In this document: positions 4,309 to 16,629 of the stretch, one piece after another
How positions within the stretch are numbered: position 1 is the first letter of the stretch
Layout of the letters: every line of letters starts with the position of its first letter
IMG/VR virus record: IMGVR_UViG_3300043410_001673
Span: 1 to 20,295 of that record
Source: a virus
DNA length: 20,295 nt
Reading direction: 5' to 3' (one strand)
Notes under the pieces: model-generated
The model's input: only the letters and a program-made list of their open reading frames with translations
What the model was told of the DNA's origin: nothing
Databases searched by the model: none
Position numbers and translations under genes: made by a program

Positions 4309-4614
4309 ATGAAAAAATTGTTAGCTGTTTTATTATTGGTTGTTAGTGGTGCCGCAATGGCACATGGCCCTCATGGTTATTGGCACCACAACAACGGCGG
4401 TTGGAATTGGATGGCTCCGGCAATAATTGGCGGTATCATAGGTTATGAAATTAGTCGACCACCTGTTTACACATCTCCACCAGTTGTCATTCAGCAGCCT
4501 CCAGTTGTTGTCCAACAAAATCCTGTTATTATACAAGGACAAAATTGTAGTCCTTGGACACAAATACAAAATCCTGACGGAACTATAACTACTACAAGGA
4601 CCTGTACACAATAA
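4309..4614 (+). CDS. Small exported protein with signal peptide and glycine-zipper-like segment
   Basis: A classical Sec signal peptide is visible: two Lys, a hydrophobic run LLAVLLLVVSGA, then cleavage predicted after AMA at residue 18. The mature part of about 83 aa begins with a His/Gly/Trp-rich stretch, then a short hydrophobic glycine-rich helix (MAPAIIGGIIGYEI), a Pro/Val/Gln-repeat region (PPVVIQQPPVVVQQ) and a C-terminal part with two Cys. Such proteins go to the periplasm or outer membrane of Gram-negative cells, which supports a Gram-negative host. I know no specific function. SD AGGAG at 4298-4302; the stop overlaps the iscU start (TAATG). Confidence 0.8.
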   Translation: MKKLLAVLLLVVSGAAMAHGPHGYWHHNNGGWNWMAPAIIGGIIGYEISRPPVYTSPPVVIQQPPVVVQQNPVIIQGQNCSPWTQIQNPDGTITTTRTCTQ

Positions 4615-5021
4615 TGGCTTATTCAGAACAAGTTATTGATCATTACGAAAACCCTCGTAATGTAGGTAGTTTTGCTAAAGATGAAGAAGGTGTAGGTACA
4701 GGTATGGTAGGTGCACCTGCCTGCGGCGATGTTATGAAACTTCAAATTAAAGTAAATAATGATGGAGTCATAACAGATGCCAAATTTAAAACGTATGGTT
4801 GCGGAAGCGCGATTGCGTCGAGTTCGCTCGTTACTGAATGGGTTAAGGGACGGACACTTGACGAGGCGGCAAAGATCAAAAATAGCGAGATTGCTACTGA
4901 GCTTGCCCTCCCCCCTGTTAAAATTCATTGTTCAATACTTGCAGAAGATGCGATCAAAGCGGCCGTAAATGATTACCGTAACAGACACAGCCAAAGAAAA
5001 AATCAAACAGTTACTGGCTAA
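4614..5021 (+). CDS. iscU: Fe-S cluster assembly scaffold protein IscU
   Basis: Scaffold on which [2Fe-2S] clusters are built and passed to acceptor proteins. It aligns without gaps to E. coli IscU over the first 110 residues, with the same numbering: Cys37 and Asp39 (APACGD), Cys63 (YGCGSA), His105 and Cys106 (KIHCSI). The LPPVK motif at 99-103, which HscA Hsp70 binds, is intact, so the protein is probably functional with host partners. It is 135 aa against 128, because the C-terminus runs on through the first 53 nt of iscA in another frame. The central part (about 4800-4880) is much richer in G+C and uses GCG and TCG codons unlike its surroundings, hinting at a recent exchange. No iscS, hscA, hscB or fdx is in the window. 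Confidence 0.96.
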   Translation: MAYSEQVIDHYENPRNVGSFAKDEEGVGTGMVGAPACGDVMKLQIKVNNDGVITDAKFKTYGCGSAIASSSLVTEWVKGRTLDEAAKIKNSEIATELALPPVKIHCSILAEDAIKAAVNDYRNRHSQRKNQTVTG

Positions 5022-5295
5022 AAGAGGCCAGGGCGTAGGTATAAGGATAGGAGTCAAAACCACAGGATGTAGCGGTTTGGCTTACACCTTAGAATATGTC
5101 AATACATACACGCCAGAACCGGGCGTGACTAACTTTGCTCAACCGGATTTTGTAGTCCTAATTGATGCCAAAAGTCTAGTATATTTGGACGGGCTAACGA
5201 TAGATTGGGTTCGCAATGGACTCAATGAAGGATTTGATTTTAAGAATCCAAATGAGCGCGATCGCTGTGGATGCGGCGAATCATTTAGAATTTGA
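4969..5295 (+). CDS. iscA: A-type Fe-S carrier protein IscA
   Basis: A 108-aa A-type carrier that takes Fe-S clusters (or iron) from IscU to target apoproteins. The three ligand cysteines are present: Cys34 (TTGCSGLAY) and Cys100/Cys102 (CGCGESF near the C-terminus). The LNEGFDFKNPN segment matches E. coli IscA. The ATG at 4969 lies inside iscU, and the first 53 nt are read in two frames. No separate ribosome site is needed if translation is coupled. The TGA stop overlaps the -35 box of the next promoter. Together with iscU it forms a two-gene Fe-S module, unusual in a phage. Confidence 0.95.
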   Translation: MITVTDTAKEKIKQLLAKRGQGVGIRIGVKTTGCSGLAYTLEYVNTYTPEPGVTNFAQPDFVVLIDAKSLVYLDGLTIDWVRNGLNEGFDFKNPNERDRCGCGESFRI

Positions 5296-5909: not shown

Positions 5910-6440
5910 ATGATACGCACAATCAAATTAGTAATTTATACTATCGCTTTAATGGCGGTATTGAGCATAGGATACAAAGCAGTTGATTATAAATTAAAAT
6001 ATTTAGAAACAAACAAACTAGCAATGAGTCCTGTCACTATGGCAGTAAGAGAAAAACAATTAGACTGCCTTGCAAAAAACATTTACCACGAAGCCGGTTA
6101 CGAACCTTTTGAAGGTAAAGTAGCTGTAGCTCAAGTAACAATTAATAGATCAAAGAGCGACAAATTCCCTAGCGATATTTGTCAAGTCGTATACCAAAAA
6201 AATGTTGTGTACGAAAAAGTTTTATGCCAATTTACTTGGTACTGTGAACAAGCATCTATTACTAAACCATTGAATAAATCTGCTTATACAGAAAGTATGG
6301 AAGTAGCTAAAAAAGTTTTATTAGAAGGGTTTAGATTACGTGATTTAAATTCGGCATTATATTACCATGCTGATTACGTACATCCAAACTGGAAGAAAAC
6401 GCCAATTGCCAAAATTGGTCACCACATTTTTTATGAGTGA
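5910..6440 (+). CDS. SleB-type cell wall hydrolase (probable endolysin) with N-terminal membrane anchor
   Basis: A 176-aa protein with a hydrophobic segment at residues about 5-22, probably a signal-anchor, then the Hydrolase_2/SleB domain from residue about 48. The motif NIYHEAGYEPFEGKVAVAQV carries the likely catalytic Glu61; the segment VTINRSKSDKFPSDICQVVYQ is typical for the family, which cleaves peptidoglycan glycan strands. Three Cys (53, 92, 107 region) could form a disulfide after export. A strong AAAGGAGG ribosome site precedes the ATG. The probable holin gene follows immediately, so this looks like the lysis pair. Confidence 0.88.
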   Translation: MIRTIKLVIYTIALMAVLSIGYKAVDYKLKYLETNKLAMSPVTMAVREKQLDCLAKNIYHEAGYEPFEGKVAVAQVTINRSKSDKFPSDICQVVYQKNVVYEKVLCQFTWYCEQASITKPLNKSAYTESMEVAKKVLLEGFRLRDLNSALYYHADYVHPNWKKTPIAKIGHHIFYE

Positions 6441-7463: not shown

Positions 7464-8759
7464 ATGATTTTAGCTTATCTATTATTAATAACAGGTTTAA
7501 CAATATCGGCGGTCGCAATCTACTATTCTGTAGTAGGTTTGACCGCTATATTTTCTGCGGCAGTTATTCCAATTATTATTATGGGGTCAGCTCTTGAAGT
7601 TGGCAAACTTGTCTGCGCCTCTTGGTTAAAGGCTAATTGGGAACGTGCTCCACGTTTCATGAAGTATTACATGATCACTGCGGTTATGGTTCTAATGCTT
7701 ATTACTTCAATGGGTATCTTTGGATTCCTATCTAAGGCACATAATGACCAAAACTTAGTGTCAGGTGATGTACAAAGTAAAATTGCAGTCTATGACGAGA
7801 AAATTAAAACGGCTAGAGACAACATCGAAGCCGACCGTAAACAACTTAAACAAATGGATGAAGCTGTGGACCAAGTTATGGGACGCAGTTCAGATGAAAA
7901 GGGCGCCGACAAAGCAGTTGCCATCCGTAGGTCACAAGCCAAAGATCGTGCGGCACTTGCTAAAGATATCGAAGCCAACCAGAAAATCATTAGTACCCTC
8001 AGTGACGAAGCCGCACCTATACGAGCTGAAGTCAGAAAAGTGGAAGCAGAAGTTGGACCAATCAAATACATAGCCAAGTTCATTTATGGTGATAAGGGTG
8101 CTGACGAAAACTTTTTAGAAAAAGCAGTAACATGGATTATTATCCTTATTGTGATCGTATTTGATCCACTAGCAGTTATCATGTTGCTAGGCGCACAAAT
8201 GACTTTTGGTTGGTTAAAAGAATCAAAAGAAAATGAGTTTCTACTACACAAAACTGTAGAACATACAGATTTGCCAACACTAGAAAAATTAGAACAAGAA
8301 TTTGAAGAATCAATAGCTACGGAAGAAGTCGTAGAAGAATTTGTTGAACAAGAAGCAGAAGACACATTTAAATTTTTAGCGGATGAGAATGATGTCTACC
8401 CTGAGGGCAAACCCTGGGAAGATAAACCTATTGTTGAAGCATCTAATGACGCTATCCTCCCGGAAGTAACATGGCCATTTCCAGAAGCAACACCACCTGA
8501 TAATGTAATTAACACAGATGTTTCTGAATTAGATAAATGGGAAACAGCAGTTGCAAGTTTACAAAATGACCTTGACGCTAAGAAACTCGAAGAAGCAGAA
8601 AAATATATCCCCCAAATGGAAAGACCGGGTGATTACCTTGTATCAACTGATAGACTAAAACCAGATCTAACAGAAGTTATCGAACCAGAAGGTTCAAAAA
8701 AAAAGACTTATATGATGAAGGACCCTACGGGACATCTTATGATTCAAACCAAGGAATAG
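7464..8759 (+). CDS. Large membrane and coiled-coil protein; zero-frame product of a frameshift pair
   Basis: 431 aa in the zero frame. Predicted membrane segments lie at about 3-24, 27-48 and 69-90; a charged coiled-coil region of about 110 residues (100-200) follows, then a fourth membrane segment at about 222-247, and an acidic tail of about 180 residues. The layout resembles a conserved membrane protein of T4-like marine phages; its role is not known to me. The ATG starts 3 nt after the upstream stop and has only a weak ribosome site, so translation is probably coupled. An A AAA AAG site at 8699-8705 near the 3' end would let ribosomes shift to -1 and make a 522-aa product. Without the shift, 17 residues follow the slip site. 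Confidence 0.85.
   Translation: MILAYLLLITGLTISAVAIYYSVVGLTAIFSAAVIPIIIMGSALEVGKLVCASWLKANWERAPRFMKYYMITAVMVLMLITSMGIFGFLSKAHNDQNLVSGDVQSKIAVYDEKIKTARDNIEADRKQLKQMDEAVDQVMGRSSDEKGADKAVAIRRSQAKDRAALAKDIEANQKIISTLSDEAAPIRAEVRKVEAEVGPIKYIAKFIYGDKGADENFLEKAVTWIIILIVIVFDPLAVIMLLGAQMTFGWLKESKENEFLLHKTVEHTDLPTLEKLEQEFEESIATEEVVEEFVEQEAEDTFKFLADENDVYPEGKPWEDKPIVEASNDAILPEVTWPFPEATPPDNVINTDVSELDKWETAVASLQNDLDAKKLEEAEKYIPQMERPGDYLVSTDRLKPDLTEVIEPEGSKKKTYMMKDPTGHLMIQTKE
8699..8705 (+). promoter_or_regulatory. Slippery heptamer A AAA AAG for -1 ribosomal frameshifting
   Basis: Within a run of nine A (8696-8704) plus G, the heptamer is in the correct zero-frame phase (AAA 8700-8702, AAG 8703-8705), the same motif as E. 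coli dnaX. A ribosome-binding-like AGAAGG at 8687-8692 sits about 7 nt upstream, as in dnaX. A possible downstream stem (GATG with CATC around CCC-TAC-GGG, about 8714-8735) is weak. Confidence 0.75.
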
Positions 8760-9031
8760 AATACGTCCAAAACCAAGAACAACTAACTGATTCTAGTATT
8801 TGGTCTAAAATAAACGGCAGAGCTAGTGATATTTTTTACAAAGAGTATTCAGATCACGAATTTCAAAATTTCCAAGTTGACGAAGCCACTGACCCGGAAT
8901 TGTATAAATTTGTAGAAGAAACAAAAAAATATGGTCCTAGATTTGCCGACTATAAAGAAAGAATTTTACAAAAGTATAAAGAGCGTTTAGATGAACTTAG
9001 GAAAGATAACAGTAATAACACCGCCGGATAA
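8705..9031 (+). CDS. -1 frame extension without start codon, fused to the membrane protein by frameshift
   Basis: An open frame of 108 codons after the slip site (reading DLYDEGPYGTSYDSNQ at its start and [17 protein letters not shown] at its end). The same frame is closed by stops at 8648-8653, and between there and 8898 it has no ATG, GTG or TTG start. The only in-frame TTG (8899) has no ribosome site and would discard most of the frame. Composition is soluble, charged and helical, like neighbouring proteins, not like random frame. The simplest reading is a C-terminal domain added to the 431-aa protein in a fraction of products. A missing A in the homopolymer (sequencing or real mutation) is the alternative. 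It overlaps the next gene by 41 nt. Confidence 0.75.
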   Translation, partial: DLYDEGPYGTSYDSNQGIEYVQNQEQLTDSSIWSKINGRASDIFYKEYSDHEFQNFQVDEATDPELYKFVEETKKYGPRFADYKERILQKYKERLDELRKDNSNNTAG

Positions 9032-9398
9032 GTTGTTCAATTCCACCCTTAGTTATTTGCTTGTTAAACCTAGCAAACTAGTTAAAGAACAATTCCAAAC
9101 AATCTTAAGCAGAAGCATTGATGATTTAAATGTTTTTATTTTTGATACTGAGGACCAAGATATAGATTGGCTATTAAGCGTGGCCCAACAAGCAGATTGT
9201 GTTATAATTGATATTGATAATTGCGATCCAATTACTCAAAAGTTTATAACCTATTTGCTAACGGAACCTAACGTTCATTATATAACCAATGATGAGCTTA
9301 CTCCGTATAAATTAATAAATCAAAATAGAATATTCAATTTAGATTGGATTATTGAACAAATCTTAGATGAAGGGACAGATGATGTACAAGAAGATTAA
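8991..9398 (+). CDS. Hypothetical protein (135 aa)
   Basis: I do not recognise it. It begins [16 protein letters not shown] and shows alternating hydrophobic strands and helices ([29 protein letters not shown]), an alpha/beta pattern that recalls a Rossmann-like or receiver-like fold but without a P-loop or a clear phosphorylation site. The C-terminus is acidic. It overlaps the frameshift extension by 41 nt at its start and bS21 by 17 nt at its end, which places it firmly in this operon. A ribosome site is not evident, so coupling to the upstream frame is likely. Confidence 0.7.
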
Positions 9399-9612
9399 AG
9401 GTACTGCGGTTATAGTTAAAGAAAACGAAAATATCAATCAAGCACTACGCCGCTTGAAGAGAAAAGTCGACGATGCCGGCACTTTGGATGATTTACGTAA
9501 AAAAGAGTTTTATGAAAAACCTACTACTGAAAAGAAAAGAAAAGCAGGTGCAGCCAAAGCTAGATGGAGGAAAAAGATGATCGCAGATCAGTTACCTCCA
9601 AAACTATTTTAA
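9382..9612 (+). CDS. rpsU: Ribosomal protein bS21 homologue
   Basis: 76 aa. The core [20 protein letters not shown] and the [14 protein letters not shown] segment match bacterial bS21, the small-subunit protein near the mRNA exit that helps initiation. The basic C-terminal helix is kept and the N-terminus has about eight extra residues. Start: ATG 9382 has AAGGG 7 nt upstream; in-frame ATGs at 9379 and 9367 are alternatives. Phage bS21 is known from several aquatic phages and is thought to enter host ribosomes and favour phage mRNAs. It overlaps the preceding gene by 17 nt. Confidence 0.93.
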
Positions 9613-10241: not shown

Positions 10242-10517
10242 ATGGATTCTAAACAACGAGAAATAATGAACATTTTATCTGAAGAATGTGCAGAAGTAAT
10301 TCAAGCTATCAGCAAATGTCATAGATTTGGTATGGATAATTATAAACCAGGCAAACCAAAAACTAATCGAGATCATTTAGAAGAAGAATTAGGCGACTTA
10401 ATGGCCATGATTGATATATTGTTAGAAAAAGGTGTAATAGACCCTAACCATTTAGAAATAGCCAAATTAGCAAAAATTGAAAAACTTAAAAAGTGGTCAA
10501 CTATCTATGTGGACTAA
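10242..10517 (+). CDS. mazG: MazG-like nucleotide pyrophosphohydrolase
   Basis: A 91-aa all-alpha NTP pyrophosphatase. The metal-binding pattern EExxE...ExxD is intact: Glu14, Glu15, Glu18, Glu49 and Asp52 (EECAEVIQ and EELGD). Family members hydrolyse (d)NTPs to monophosphates, and phage versions are proposed to tune nucleotide pools or alarmone signalling. The start follows the exonuclease stop by 2 nt. The last 11 nt overlap the next gene. The short single-domain form is typical for phages. Confidence 0.9.
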   Translation: MDSKQREIMNILSEECAEVIQAISKCHRFGMDNYKPGKPKTNRDHLEEELGDLMAMIDILLEKGVIDPNHLEIAKLAKIEKLKKWSTIYVD

Positions 10518-11244
10518 CTGTAAAGTCTTTATAGTTAGTTTAATATCCTGCATTGCCCTTGGAGTTCAAGCAGTAGAAGTTATACCCCATCTAACAGCAA
10601 AGAGTTGGTTAGTTGCTGATGCTGAAGGAAAAATAATCGATGGCTCGAATACTAAAGAAGTTAGAAGTATAGCCAGCATTACCAAATTGATGACTGTAAT
10701 GATTGTTTTAGATGCTAAACAAAATTTAGAGCAAAGTGTAAATCAATATACTAGAGAACAACTAATAGATCTAGCACTTGTACGTTCAAATAATCAAGCA
10801 GCCGAAGCATTATGTGAAGCGTATCCTACAGGCAAACATGGTTGTATTAGGGCCATGAACTCAAAAGCGAGAGAATTAGGATTAACTCATACGACTTTTG
10901 TAGAACCTACTGGATTAAGTATATGGAATGTAAGTACTGCTGAAGACCTTGTATTGTTAGTTAAGGCCGCAAGTACCTATCCAGAGATAGTGGCCGCAAG
11001 TCAAATATCAGAAGTAAAAATAAAATTAAGAAAGAAATGGCTAGTATTTCAAAATACTAATCCTATAATAGGTAAAAAGCATAAATTTATAGTAAGTAAA
11101 ACAGGTTACATTAATGCCAGCGGCGGATGTATTGTAATGATGCTTGATACTGATATAGGACATAGAACTGTTGTAGTGTTAGGCTCGAAGAATACAAAAA
11201 CACGTATACCCGAAGCTGAATTTATTTTTGAAAATGTAAAATAA
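10507..11244 (+). CDS. Secreted S11-family D,D-peptidase (PBP7-like)
   Basis: A 245-aa serine peptidase acting on peptidoglycan cross-links or stem peptides in the periplasm. A signal peptide spans residues 1-22 (FIVSLISCIALGVQA). All three penicillin-binding motifs are present: SITK at 57-60 with the acylated Ser57, SNN at 94-96, and KTG at 198-200. The length and the missing C-terminal anchor fit PBP7/PbpG-type DD-endopeptidases more than PBP5. I chose ATG 10507, because the signal peptide starts there; an upstream in-frame ATG at 10477 would add a hydrophilic stretch. It overlaps mazG by 11 nt. This second wall enzyme, besides SleB, could loosen the wall for lysis or remodel it during infection. 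Confidence 0.9.
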   Translation: MWTNCKVFIVSLISCIALGVQAVEVIPHLTAKSWLVADAEGKIIDGSNTKEVRSIASITKLMTVMIVLDAKQNLEQSVNQYTREQLIDLALVRSNNQAAEALCEAYPTGKHGCIRAMNSKARELGLTHTTFVEPTGLSIWNVSTAEDLVLLVKAASTYPEIVAASQISEVKIKLRKKWLVFQNTNPIIGKKHKFIVSKTGYINASGGCIVMMLDTDIGHRTVVVLGSKNTKTRIPEAEFIFENVK

Positions 11245-12073: not shown

Positions 12074-12111
12074 GGGCATGGTGCCCACAATTACTCGCTT
12101 AATTAAGGAGA
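12074..12111 (+). promoter_or_regulatory. dnaK leader: GGGCA/TGCCC hairpin plus shared leader core
   Basis: A 5-bp stem GGGCA (12074-12078) / TGCCC (12082-12086) with a 3-nt loop, then GCTTAATTAAGGAGA at 12097-12111, which includes the ribosome site. The hsp20 leader has the same order and spacing. A TATAAA at 12067-12072 may be a -10 or late-type box, but no -35 fits. Confidence 0.5.
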
Positions 12112-12116
12112 ATATT

Positions 12117-14018
12117 ATGAGTAAAATCATCGGTATCGATTTAGGTACAACAAATAGCTGTGTAGCAATCTTAGAAAATGGAGTTGCTAAAGTAATCGAA
12201 AACAGCGAAGGTGCTAGAACAACACCAAGTATCGTAGCATACACTGACTCAGAAGTACTAGTCGGTGCGACGGCTAAACGACAAGCAGTAACAAATCCAA
12301 AAAACACAATTTACGCAGCCAAGCGCCTAATCGGACGTAAGTTTGAAGAGCAGGCTGTACAAAAAGATATTGACCTAATGCCTTACAAGATTGTAAGAGC
12401 TGAAAATGGCGATGCATGGATTGAAGCAAATGATCAAAAACTTGCTCCTCCACAGGTAAGCGCAGAAGTTTTGCGCAAAATGAAAAAGACTGCTGAAGAT
12501 TATCTAGGCAAAGAAGTCACACAAGCAGTTATTACAGTTCCTGCTTATTTCAATGACAGCCAACGTCAAGCAACAAAAGATGCTGGTAAAATTGCAGGCT
12601 TAGAAGTACTACGTATCATCAACGAGCCAACTGCGGCCGCCCTAGCATACGGTGTTGACAAACAAGACAAGCGTGATCGCAAAGTTGCTGTTTACGACTT
12701 AGGTGGTGGTACATTTGATATTTCAATCATTGAAATCGCAAACGTAGATGGTGACAAGCAAATTGAAGTATTGTCAACAAACGGTGATACATTCCTAGGC
12801 GGTGAAGACTTTGACCAACGTATCATGGATTACTTGGTTGATACTTTCTTAAAAGAAAGTGGTGTTGACCTAACTAAAGATGTACTAGCACTACAACGTC
12901 TAAAAGAGGCAGCTGAAAAAGCTAAGATTGAATTGTCTAGTACAGCTAGTACAGCAGTTAACCTACCATACATTACAGCAGATGCTACAGGTCCTAAACA
13001 CTTAAATGTAACAATAACTCGTGCTAAGTTTGAAAGTCTAGTAGAAGACCTAATTCAAAGATCTATTGATCCTTGCAAGATTGCTATGAATGATGCAGGT
13101 GTTTCACCTTCCGATATTGACGAAATTATTCTTGTCGGTGGCCAAACACGTATGCCTAAAGTACAAGAGGCTGTTGAAAAATTATTTGGCAAATCACCAC
13201 GTAAGGATGTTAATCCAGATGAAGCTGTAGCCGCTGGCGCCGCAGTACAAGGTGCTGTTCTAGCCGGTGACAAAACAGACGTTCTATTGTTAGACGTTAC
13301 TCCATTGAGCTTAGGTATTGAAACAATGGGTGGTGTTTTTAATAAGATCATTCAAAAGAATACAACTATCCCGACAAAAGCCAGCCAAACATATTCTACA
13401 GCAGAAGATAATCAACCTGCTGTTACAATTAAAGTTGGACAAGGCGAACGCGAATTATTCAAGTATAACAAAGAGCTTGGAATCTTCAACTTAGAAGGTA
13501 TTAATCCTGCACCACGCGGTATGCCACAAATTGAAGTTACATTTGATATTGATGCTAACGGTATCATGAAGATTAGTGCCAAGGATAAAGGCACAGGCAA
13601 AGAAAATCAAATCACTATCAAGAGCGATAGCGGTTTAAGTGATGCTGAAATCCAACGCATGGTTAAAGAAGCAGAAGAAAATGCAGAAGCAGATAAAAAA
13701 GCTACTGAATTAATTAATGCACGTAACCAAGCAGATAGTACAGTTCATTCGATGAACAAAGACTTTGAAGATGTAAAAGATCTTTTAACAGAAGAAGAAA
13801 AGACAGCATACGAATCTGCTAAAACCTCCTTAACAGAAACTATTAAAGGAGAAGATAAAGATGCTATTGATAAGGCTCTTCAAAAGTATTTTGAGGCAGC
13901 TGGTCCTGTAATGCAGAAAAAGCAAGAAAAGGCCCAAGCTGAATCAAACCCTGCTCCTCAAGGGGAACAAACCGTAGATGCGGAGTTCAAAGAGGTTGAT
14001 CCTTCTGAAAAGAAGTGA
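12117..14018 (+). CDS. dnaK: Hsp70 chaperone DnaK, full length
   Basis: 633 aa, close to E. coli DnaK (638). The ATPase domain begins [16 protein letters not shown], with the phosphate-2 motif [11 protein letters not shown] and the adenosine motif [10 protein letters not shown]. The interdomain linker [11 protein letters not shown] couples it to the substrate-binding domain, and the C-terminus keeps the VDAEFKEVD tail that resembles bacterial DnaK. It is DnaK type, not HscA. The ATG at 12117 has AAGGAG 6 nt upstream; an earlier in-frame ATG at 12078 lies in the leader hairpin and is unlikely. No dnaJ or grpE is visible, so host co-chaperones are needed. The hsp20 promoter lies in its last codons. 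Confidence 0.97.
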
Positions 14019-14024
14019 TATAAT
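13996..14024 (+). promoter_or_regulatory. Sigma70-type promoter of the hsp20-clpS-ho-aceA-bilin reductase unit
   Basis: TTGATC at 13996-14001, a 17-nt spacer and exact TATAAT at 14019-14024, across the dnaK stop. The predicted start near 14031 falls on the 5' edge of a strong hairpin. No heat-shock sigma32 boxes are seen. Confidence 0.7.
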
Positions 14025-14028
14025 AAAT

Positions 14029-14079
14029 TATAGGGCGCCGGTGGTCGGGCCCTATACAGTTCTTGCTTAATAAAGGAGA
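14029..14079 (+). promoter_or_regulatory. hsp20 leader: strong 5' hairpin plus shared leader core
   Basis: TATAGGGC (14029-14036) pairs with GCCCTATA (14049-14056), and an inner CCG/CGG stem (14038-14040, 14046-14048) closes a 5-nt loop. No T-run follows, so it is not a standard terminator. GCTTAATAAAGGAGA at 14065-14079 is identical to the dnaK leader core at 14 of 15 positions. It may stabilise the mRNA 5' end or regulate translation. Confidence 0.55.
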
Positions 14080-14085
14080 TCTAAA

Positions 14086-14511
14086 ATGACACAACTAAGA
14101 ACTATTGATGCGCAAGCTCTTGCCAATATAAACAGAGCACTAGTAGGTTTTGACCGTATATTCAATGATCGTTTTTTTCAAGGCGCTCAAAACGGTAACT
14201 ATCCCCCACATAATATTGTAAAATACAGTGAAGATCACTACGGAATTGAAGTAGCAGTTGCTGGATTTAGCAAAGACGATATTTCAGTTGAGGTAAATCA
14301 AGACCAACTTAAAATTACAGGAAACAAATCTGTAGATGATACTAAAGAATATATTCATAGAGGATTAGCTTTTAGAGATTTCTCACAAACTTATACTCTA
14401 GCTGAATATATGGAAGTAAAAGGTGCAGAAGTAAAAGATGGCATGCTTAAAATTACAATTGAGCGCCATGTTCCTGAAGCACTAAAACCACGTTTGATTG
14501 AAATCAAATAA
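14086..14511 (+). CDS. hsp20: Small heat shock protein Hsp20 (IbpA-like)
   Basis: 141 aa. The alpha-crystallin domain spans about residues 43-135: YGIEVAVAGFSKDDISVEV, LKITGNKS, then YIHRGLAFRDFSQTYTLAEYMEVKGAEVKDGMLKI (quoted in parts), with the C-terminal I-x-I anchor seen as LIEIK. The N-terminal arm FDRIFNDRF is like IbpA. It holds unfolding proteins in a refoldable state for DnaK, which is encoded just upstream. Hsp20 is common in T4-like marine phages. It is the first gene after the promoter at 13996, and a perfect hairpin separates it from clpS. Confidence 0.95.
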   Translation: MTQLRTIDAQALANINRALVGFDRIFNDRFFQGAQNGNYPPHNIVKYSEDHYGIEVAVAGFSKDDISVEVNQDQLKITGNKSVDDTKEYIHRGLAFRDFSQTYTLAEYMEVKGAEVKDGMLKITIERHVPEALKPRLIEIK

Positions 14512-14520
14512 TTAAATAAC

Positions 14521-14544
14521 ATTGGGGGAGGAAACTCCCCCAAT
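14521..14544 (+). terminator. Perfect 10-bp hairpin with GAAA loop between hsp20 and clpS
   Basis: ATTGGGGGAG (14521-14530), GAAA loop, CTCCCCCAAT (14535-14544). The downstream sequence is CTTCGGAG, not a T-run, so it may act as a partial terminator, an RNase block protecting the hsp20 mRNA, or a processing site that sets hsp20 above the downstream genes. Confidence 0.6.
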
Positions 14545-14558
14545 CTTCGGAGAAATAA

Positions 14559-14861
14559 ATGCCAGGAACCGACATTCAATTAGACGAAAAAGTTAAAGTA
14601 ACAGTAACAGAACCTAAACGTTGGAAAGTTATTTTCCTTAATGACGATACTACACCTATGGAATTTGTAATCGGTGTACTACAAGAAATTTTTAAACACA
14701 CCGCAGATTCTGCTAGAGCAGTAATGCTACAAGTTCATGAAACAGGTAGCGGCATTGCAGGTATTTACAGTTTTGAAATAGGTGAAGCCAAAGCAGTTGA
14801 AGCTACTAACGAAGCTAGGACAAATGGATTTCCTCTTCAAATAAAATTGGAAGAAGAATGA
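14559..14861 (+). CDS. clpS: ClpS adaptor of ClpAP protease
   Basis: 100 aa, the normal ClpS length. It brings N-end-rule substrates to ClpA. The N-degron pocket residues are visible: Asn28, Asp29 and Asp30 in FLNDDTTPMEFV, and His60 in LQVHETGSGIAGIY. The C-terminal [12 protein letters not shown] ending also matches. No clpA or clpP is in the window, so it would redirect the host protease. A GGAG ribosome site is 8 nt upstream. The stop overlaps the heme oxygenase start (ATGA), so they are probably translationally coupled. Confidence 0.95.
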   Translation: MPGTDIQLDEKVKVTVTEPKRWKVIFLNDDTTPMEFVIGVLQEIFKHTADSARAVMLQVHETGSGIAGIYSFEIGEAKAVEATNEARTNGFPLQIKLEEE

Positions 14862-15400
14862 GTTTAAAAGATATTACCGCAGATCTACACGATAAGGCGG
14901 AAGATACTCCATTTATGAAAGCAGTCTTTGCTGGCGAATTACCTATTAAAGTATGGGAAGAATGGACCTACTGGCGCACCATGTTTTATAGTGCTATTGA
15001 AGACAAGTGTGAACAAGGTAATTTGCTTGATGATTTACAAGGGATTAAACGTGCTACATCCTTGATGCAAGATTATATTGGAATGCGCAATGGTAATTGG
15101 TTACCAAGCAATAATTGTAATAACCCGGCATTGAACGAATATTTAGATTACATTAAAACACTAACATCTGATCGAGCATTAGCTCACTTGTATGTATGGC
15201 ACATGGGTGACTTATACGGCGGGCAAATGATTAAAAAAGTTATTCCCGCACCTACGCACTACGCATTAGAGTTTGAAGATGCTACTACATTAAAAAATAA
15301 TCTACGTGCCAAACTTACTGACGATTTAGGCCCAGAAGCACGTACAGCATTTGAATTTGCTATTAAAATGTTAAATGAGGTATACAAAATAGATAACTAA
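14858..15400 (+). CDS. ho1: Heme oxygenase
   Basis: 180 aa, soluble, shorter than cyanobacterial HO1 (about 240). It opens heme to biliverdin, releasing CO and Fe2+, with electrons from ferredoxin. The proximal heme ligand is His11 in [15 protein letters not shown], and the distal glycine helix is [11 protein letters not shown] (residues 117-127), where most HO proteins have GDLSGGQ. No C-terminal membrane anchor is present. It is coupled to clpS by ATGA and followed 20 nt later by aceA. The bilin reductase two genes downstream would use its product. Confidence 0.93.
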
Positions 15401-15420: not shown

Positions 15421-16629
15421 ATGAAAAAGCGTAATTACACACAAGACACAGTAAGAAAGTTAGGAGGATCTGTTCAGATTGAACACACACTAGCTAAAAG
15501 AGGAGCAGGTAAATTAAGGCATTTACTTGCAACAGAACCATATATTAATACATTGGGCGCATACAGCGGCCAACAAGCGGTACAACACGCCAAAGCCGGA
15601 CTAAAAGCAGTTTATCTAAGTGGATGGCAAGTAGCCGCAGCCGCAAACACCGCAGGACAAACATATCCAGATCAAAGTTTGTATCCTGTAAACTCAGTAC
15701 CCGCAATCGTTAAACAGATTAACAATGCTTTCCGTCGTGCTGATCAAATTGAATACTCAGAAGGCAATGTAACAACAGATTACTTTTTACCTATTGTGGC
15801 CGATGCTGAAGCAGGCTTCGGTGGCGCCTTAAATGCATACGAATTAATGATGGCTATGATTGAAGCAGGTGCCGCAGGTGTTCACTTTGAAGATCAATTG
15901 TCAAGCGAAAAGAAATGTGGTCACTTAGGCGGTAAGGTTCTTATTCCAATCAGCCAAGCAATACGTAATTTACAAGCCGCCCGTCTAGCTAGTGACGTGG
16001 CAGGCGTTGACACAGTTATCATGGCACGTACTGATGCTGAGTCAGCAACATTAATTACTAGCGATCATGATCCATTAGATAAGGAGTTTATCATAAATGA
16101 ACGAACAGAAGAAGGATTTTACAAGTTCCGCAACGGAATCGATGCTTGTATTTCTAGGGGCCTGGCTTATGCTCCTTACGCTGATTTACTTTGGTTTGAA
16201 ACATCAACACCTGATATCAGACAAGCTAAAAAGTTTGCCGACGCCATACACGCTGAATTCCCAGACCAAATGCTCGCCTACAATTGCTCTCCCAGTTTCA
16301 ATTGGCGCAAATTCTTGTCAGTAGAAGAATGTGAAACATTCCAACGAGAACTAGGTGAATTGGGTTATAAGTTCCAATTTATCACATTGGCCGGTTTCCA
16401 TTCAGTTAACCTAGCAACGTTTGAGCTTGCCGAGGCATATCGTCTACGCGGTATGGCAGGTTATAGTGAAATGCAACAACGTGAGTTTGAAGCACAGGTT
16501 CGTGGCTTTACCACTGTTAAACATCAACGTGAAGTAGGCGTTGGCTATTTTGACTTAATCAGCGAAGCAGTTGGCGCTACAAGTACAGTGGCAAATAAAA
16601 CATCAACAGAGTCGGATCAGTTTCATTAA
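15421..16629 (+). CDS. aceA: Isocitrate lyase
   Basis: 402 aa against 434 in E. coli; only about 25 N-terminal residues are missing and the end (TESDQFH) matches, so it is complete. It splits isocitrate into succinate and glyoxylate. The catalytic KKCGH is at 164-168 with Cys166; the metal-binding [10 protein letters not shown] is near 126-135; the substrate-binding SPSFNW and FITLAGFHS segments are intact. Long stretches agree with the E. coli enzyme. An AAGGAG ribosome site lies 7 nt before the ATG. It is placed between heme oxygenase and the bilin reductase, and its stop overlaps the reductase start (TAATG). No malate synthase is seen in the window. Confidence 0.96.

Follow-up and report, generated by a model that had tools for sequence, protein, structure and literature searches.

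A gene of an uncultured virus that at first sight is broken at a run of nine adenines is most probably a programmed recoding gene, transcriptional or ribosomal, which yields two isoforms of one membrane protein. The probability of this reading, judged from sequence comparison, is about 0.93. Programmed recoding is preferred to a sequencing error because the same break is kept in 98 of 103 distinct relatives and both products are under selection, and these two observations also support the first-pass annotation, according to which a single gene yields two isoforms in a programmed way. The window, by which the whole stretch of analysed DNA is meant, comprises 20,295 nt of the IMG/VR virus record IMGVR_UViG_3300043410_001673 (positions 1 to 20,295), and the slip gene, its sequence elements and its endolysin-like, 135-aa and bS21 neighbours are located on its plus strand.

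The slip site and its reading frames

The zero-frame open reading frame (7464..8759) encodes a membrane protein of 431 aa with a short C-terminal tail, the short isoform, and has homologues in 80 loci. It contains the nine-A slip site (8696..8704), which includes the wobble base of the preceding serine codon. With G8705 directly 3' of the run, the zero-frame codons across it are TCA AAA AAA AAG ACT, and the heptamer A_AAA_AAG (8699..8705) stands in the zero-frame phase. The zero-frame tail, KKKTYMMKDPTGHLMIQTKE followed by the stop TAG (8697..8759), is conserved with a length of 18-21 residues and is predicted with low confidence to form a β-hairpin.

Past the slip, the first stop of the -1 frame is at 9029-9031. 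The resulting extension of 108 codons plus stop (8705..9031) consists of a disordered YVQNxEQ...W segment and a predicted three-helix segment, as described by alignment, AlphaFold2 and a codon-position test, and joined to the 414 preceding codons it would give a fusion of 522 aa (414 + 108). A slip the other way would lead to a stop in the third frame (AGA CTT ATA TGA; 8713..8715), which is also found in the relatives. A gap of 231 nt separates the zero-frame stop from the next gene, and no open reading frame of at least 60 aa starting with ATG, GTG or TTG was found in the -1 frame. The phase of the heptamer, the start-less frame of 108 codons, the two product lengths and the 231 nt had all been given by the first-pass annotation, and a codon reading of the window bears them out.

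The run exceeds what chance would give: it is the sole A or T run of at least eight within the window. Elsewhere in 749 kb of family loci there are ten A8 runs, one A9 and one T8; at all 81 counted slip sites the run is at least eight long. Rfam and tRNA scans of the window gave no matches.

Conservation of the arrangement among relatives

Viral contigs were scanned with the zero-frame protein, the DNA pattern of the tail, a profile of the extension and two fused members. This led to 103 distinct extension-bearing members, which fall into 95 clusters at a DNA identity of 90% across at least 700 bases and have a median best match of 83%. The extension lies in the -1 frame behind a break at the same run in 98 of these members, is read straight into in five and is found in the +1 frame in none of the 103. 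An unbiased pattern scan, which left the choice between AAA and AAG free at all three lysine codons, returned AAA AAA AAG in 59 of 61 distinct members and AAA AAA AAA in the other two. Among the 98 relatives of the -1 type, the run is A9 in 91, A8 in five, A10 in one and A11 in one, the heptamer A_AAA_AAG (or A_AAA_AAA) is in the zero-frame phase in every member, and the third-frame stop is at most three to four codons away in all 98. Both the heptamer and the split, for which the first-pass annotation had pointed to homologues, are thus kept in 98 of 103 distinct relatives.

Two separate genes, each with a start codon, would have spoken against a slip but were not seen among the relatives, and the motif YVQNxEQ matches once per fetched locus, only at the extension. 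A continuous reading frame, through ten A or an equivalent change, had been named as a second such outcome and does exist in the five fused lineages; these five, however, keep an uninterrupted A9 or A10 run (A10 in four) and a tail-like sequence in the other frame. In two of the A10 lineages the other frame encodes the consensus tail, and when scored as a tail the other frame of the five outscores 400, 400, 400, 400 and 395 of 400 re-encodings. The tail is more divergent in three of the fused lineages, and the tail-like sequence of the fused lineages may be inherited rather than maintained, at least in part.

The fused lineages also bear on phase variation, in which replication slippage would toggle the run length of the genome, A9 giving the short form and A10 the long one, with one form per virion. 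Such a switch could leave behind what is seen in the fused lineages: all five enter the extension directly, A10 is present in four, and two of the four encode a consensus tail in the other frame. At a switching locus, however, both states should be frequent, yet 96 of the 98 members of the -1 type have A9 or A8 and no near-identical A9/A10 pairs were seen, which makes phase variation improbable.

The carriers form a large family of giant phages, uncultured and from fresh water. Because gp23, the T4-type capsid protein, was found in the two largest of eight family records, at least some carriers are T4-type jumbo phages; the remaining records are probably fragments. Searches for the extension in cultured phages gave no matches, a scan of bacterial and archaeal genomes found no relatives, and a literature search limited to open-licence PubMed Central found no study of this gene family.

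Selection on both C-termini

Both alternative C-termini are under selection at the protein level. In the overlap, the 13 codons after the run, pairwise differences among 86 non-redundant members amount to 0.26, 0.25 and 0.47 at zero-frame positions 1, 2 and 3, and the zero-frame tail is therefore selected as a protein. Past the zero-frame stop, positions 1, 2 and 3 of the -1 frame differ by 0.39, 0.27 and 0.46 in the same 86 members. A re-encoding test, in which the amino acids of the extension were recoded synonymously with the codon usage of the family 400 times per member, points in the same direction: in all six -1 members tested the real tail outscores every re-encoding, with 0 of 400 reaching its score. 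Across the family the tail follows a conserved pattern of 18-21 residues including KKK, and the extension measures 38-115 aa, with its first segment (YVQNxEQ ... W) the most conserved part and in some lineages the only one.

These results weigh on two simpler explanations. One of them holds that only one frame is functional, with the extension initiated independently or the zero-frame tail being a by-product. The greater divergence of the tail in three fused lineages would agree with this, but the -1 frame has no start yielding at least 60 aa and the tail is conserved as a protein in the -1 members, which leaves the explanation highly unlikely. Even less credible is a sequencing or assembly error or a decaying gene: homopolymer runs are error-prone and A10 is found in a few relatives, but the same break recurs in about 95 diverged lineages, substitutions are of the coding type in both frames, and the tail is conserved beyond what coding for the extension needs.

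Polymerase or ribosome slippage

Transcriptional slippage on the A9 run is slightly favoured over ribosomal frameshifting as the main cause of the recoding, somewhat better than an even chance. The alternative is programmed -1 ribosomal frameshifting on A_AAA_AAG, with an overlapping A_AAA_AAA upstream, which would give the same two isoforms at the level of translation. The first-pass annotation had proposed a ribosomal slip of this kind, like that of dnaX and stimulated by a Shine-Dalgarno-like element. Of this proposal the heptamer in phase stands, while neither the stimulator nor an RNA structure is conserved and several features agree better with slippage of the polymerase.

The length of the run is one of these features, because A9 is kept in 91 of 98 relatives although A_AAA_AAG needs fewer A, so that selection extends past the heptamer. 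Of 85 members, 79 have TCA as the preceding codon, compared with 357 TCA among 851 TCN codons (42%) upstream in the same genes, and where this serine codon is replaced by one for proline, alanine or leucine (CCA, GCA or CTA) the final A is retained. The overlap of A_AAA_AAA and A_AAA_AAG could be an alternative reason for the selection of A9.

The lack of conserved stimulators is a second argument. Downstream of the run the mean z-score is about 0 over +1..+60 (90 members) and the alifold consensus is empty, with pseudoknots outside the models used. The AGAAGG at 8687..8692, which had been put forward as the stimulator, is present in this window but not conserved in the family, which keeps only the first bases of the acidic codons while the wobble bases vary freely; an upstream Shine-Dalgarno signal was therefore rejected for the family, in which anti-Shine-Dalgarno pairing is weakly raised with few strong pairings. 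A_AAA_AAG is among the best slippery motifs of E. coli and an upstream Shine-Dalgarno is not always present at prokaryotic frameshift sites, but the best heptamers without stimulators shift at only about 0.3% in E. coli (PMC4066793), and it is this low rate together with the missing structure and Shine-Dalgarno that favours transcriptional slippage.

Avoidance of runs was assessed in two family genomes (356 and 383 kb) against the expectation from synonymous shuffling. A8 runs number 9 against 28.5 expected and 2 against 20.7 expected (ratios of 0.32 and 0.10), and T8 runs 2 against 6.6 and 0 against 7.1 (0.30 and 0). Depletion of AAAAAAG extends to both phase 1 and phase 2: its observed/expected ratio is 0.47 and 0.32 in the slippery phase, not much lower than the 0.62 and 0.41 of the non-slippery phase 1, which counts against the ribosome as the cause. 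Depletion of homopolymers is expected where runs slip in transcription or replication (PMC1088944), and the avoidance of A and T runs could be due to replication slippage instead.

The lysine tRNAs give arguments to both sides. Four of six large relatives carry phage-borne genes for both tRNA-Lys(UUU) and tRNA-Lys(CUU), the latter a reader of AAG, and two of six carry only the UUU form. Having one lysine tRNA per codon may be why dnaX of Thermus uses polymerase slippage on A9 (PMC5009743), and by comparison the CUU tRNA of four large relatives argues for the polymerase, its absence from the other two for the ribosome. The fused lineages, with their unbroken A9 or A10 and tail-like other frame, again favour transcriptional slippage, as a -1 ribosomal slip in them would end at once without reaching the tail.

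Against slippage of the polymerase stand the A8 runs of five of the 98 members, a weaker substrate for it which nevertheless retains the full heptamer, and the phase of the heptamer, which is right for a -1 ribosomal slip in every member. Ribosomal frameshifting is a serious possibility, to which we give clearly less than an even chance.

The membrane protein and its genomic neighbourhood

The N-terminal domain (codons 1-258; 7464..8237) is near-invariant within the family according to the alignment, and is predicted to consist of a long helical hairpin (residues 64-141 and 145-208) with membrane helices around it. AlphaFold2 places helices at residues 2-21 and 25-59, the long hairpin at 64-208, with pLDDT above 90 over much of it, and a further helix at 215-266. 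A variable acidic linker (8238..8693) leads from the membrane domain to the slip site, as seen from the alignment and from low pLDDT at residues 280-353 and 381-413. The mean pLDDT of the two models is about 62 and 61, and folds outside the helical hairpin were not relied on.

The domain of residues 1-258 recurs in 13 phage records, which include Pelagibacter phage Mosig, Stenotrophomonas phage RAS14, Xanthomonas phage XacN1, Salicola phage SCTP-2, Flavobacterium immuto phages and Microcystis phage Mel-JY01. A sister clade (L324, L346, L349, L397 and L414) has the same N-terminal domain but lacks the slip site, and its C-terminus, also conserved, is of another kind (YVYDEAYIDHLI...). PHROGs contained no known domain for the membrane protein, the extension or the downstream gene, and Pfam matches of the membrane protein to Tetraspanin and UPF0242 were below the cut-off and are not believed. 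For the extension, a search of solved structures and Foldseek gave no matches; for the membrane protein, every viral model that Foldseek matched at E below 0.001 was of a protein that is unnamed or uncharacterised.

The gene order in most of 80 loci is endolysin-like gene, 114-aa gene, 215-aa gene, slip gene, 135-aa gene and bS21; an exonuclease gene is a further neighbour, after bS21. In the window the endolysin-like cell-wall hydrolase lies at 5910..6440 (PF07486, E 2.8e-24) and the gene for ribosomal protein bS21 at 9367..9612 (PF01165, E 2.8e-19). Each is syntenic in 79 of 80 loci, bS21 as the second gene downstream of the slip site. The 135-aa gene (8991..9398), the start of which overlaps the end of the extension, adjoins the slip gene in 80 of 80 loci, and with start codons picked by a simple rule it begins at most 65 bases from the stop of the extension in 68 of 70 members. 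Translational coupling of this gene to the long isoform is a possibility suggested by this spacing.

Other genes of the window include IscU-like and IscA-like iron-sulphur assembly genes (4614-5295; PF01592 and PF01521), which overlap by about 50 bases, and a gene of the D-alanyl-D-alanine carboxypeptidase family (10477-11244; PF00768), which is rare (7 of 80 loci). Genes for DnaK, Hsp20, ClpS and heme oxygenase (12078-15400) are found in 68, 55, 51 and 41 of the 80 loci, which are of limited length, and an isocitrate lyase gene (15421-16629; PF00463, E 6.9e-101) was matched in one of the 80. All six large family records examined contain tRNA arrays and a tmRNA gene. In family record G002 a tRNA with anticodon CTA, labelled Pyl by ARAGORN and a possible reader of amber codons, lies near the tmRNA (L492, 18841-18916).

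Comparison with known recoding systems

Most known cases of phage recoding concern tail-chaperone and capsid genes. Like the phage gene, dnaX of Thermus thermophilus has an A9 run late in its coding sequence through which one gene gives two C-termini (PMC1088944, PMC5009743), and it is decoded with lysine tRNAs for both AAA and AAG, as found in four of the six large relatives. In Thermus, however, slippage leads to early termination and the shorter of the two products, whereas in the phage it would lead into a longer, conserved extension; the unslipped phage form has a conserved tail of its own, and slippage in the phage gene is a prediction from sequence. The dnaX gene of E. coli shares the heptamer A_AAA_AAG in the same phase, but its run is A6 rather than A9 and it has both a Shine-Dalgarno and a downstream hairpin, neither of which is conserved in the phage family.

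The tail assembly chaperone G/GT of lambda is likewise a gene of a tailed phage with a C-terminal extension reached by -1 reading. The product of the gene described here, by contrast, is a predicted membrane protein, the gene lies close to bS21 and an endolysin-like gene, and the phage loci show no sign of the major tail or tape-measure neighbours by which a G/GT-type gene would be recognised. Two C-terminal isoforms outside the tail-chaperone genes are also made by the capsid frameshifts of T3/T7 gene 10 and Lactobacillus phage A2; in the present case there is no evidence for a virion head protein, and a conserved zero-frame tail overlaps the extension. Programmed frameshifts in capsid genes have been described for T3, Lactobacillus A2 and Listeria A118, A500 and PSA (PMC5009743), which makes the earlier suggestion that such a site in a phage membrane protein outside the tail-chaperone genes is not known to have been described somewhat too strong. 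The protein of Pelagibacter phage Mosig (QOI69118.1) shares the N-terminal domain (43% identity over residues 1-258), but this protein and those of XacN1, RAS14, SCTP-2, immuto and Mel-JY01, the six homologues from cultured phages that were examined, are each encoded by a single reading frame with no A run, tail or extension.

Proposed model and implications

In the proposed model, RNA polymerase would slip on the A9 run and produce mRNAs with A9 and A10, each translated normally, as in dnaX of Thermus thermophilus. The unslipped message would give the 431-aa protein with its conserved tail of about 20 residues, the gain of one A would move translation into the -1 frame and give the 522-aa protein with the C-terminal extension, and a slip in the opposite direction would end in termination within three to four codons. 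The shared N-terminal domain would reside in the inner membrane, with the two tails acting as different cytosolic docking segments in a set ratio. Ribosomes finishing the long form would stop near the start of the next gene and may thereby couple that gene to the slip. For the family as a whole, we tentatively suggest, at somewhat below even odds, that jumbo phages set the isoform ratio of the membrane protein through slippage of the polymerase on A9, which could go either way: the default would be the tail in 98 lineages and the extension in five, with the other C-terminus reached through one A gained or lost and the third frame ending at once. If true, DNA phages would have a gene with programmed transcriptional slippage, the two tails of which are selected separately.

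What seemed to be a broken gene thus has the marks of a deliberate switch, not of a sequencing mistake, and it adds a well-supported case of recoding, located in a membrane-protein gene of large uncultured phages that are widespread. In most of these genomes, gene callers will close the gene at the zero-frame stop and overlook the extension. The natural set is unusually large, about 95 lineages with visible selection on both products, and makes the mechanism, the ratio and the purpose of the recoding testable, and the presence or absence of a phage-borne tRNA-Lys(CUU) provides a natural test of the link to one kind of slippage.
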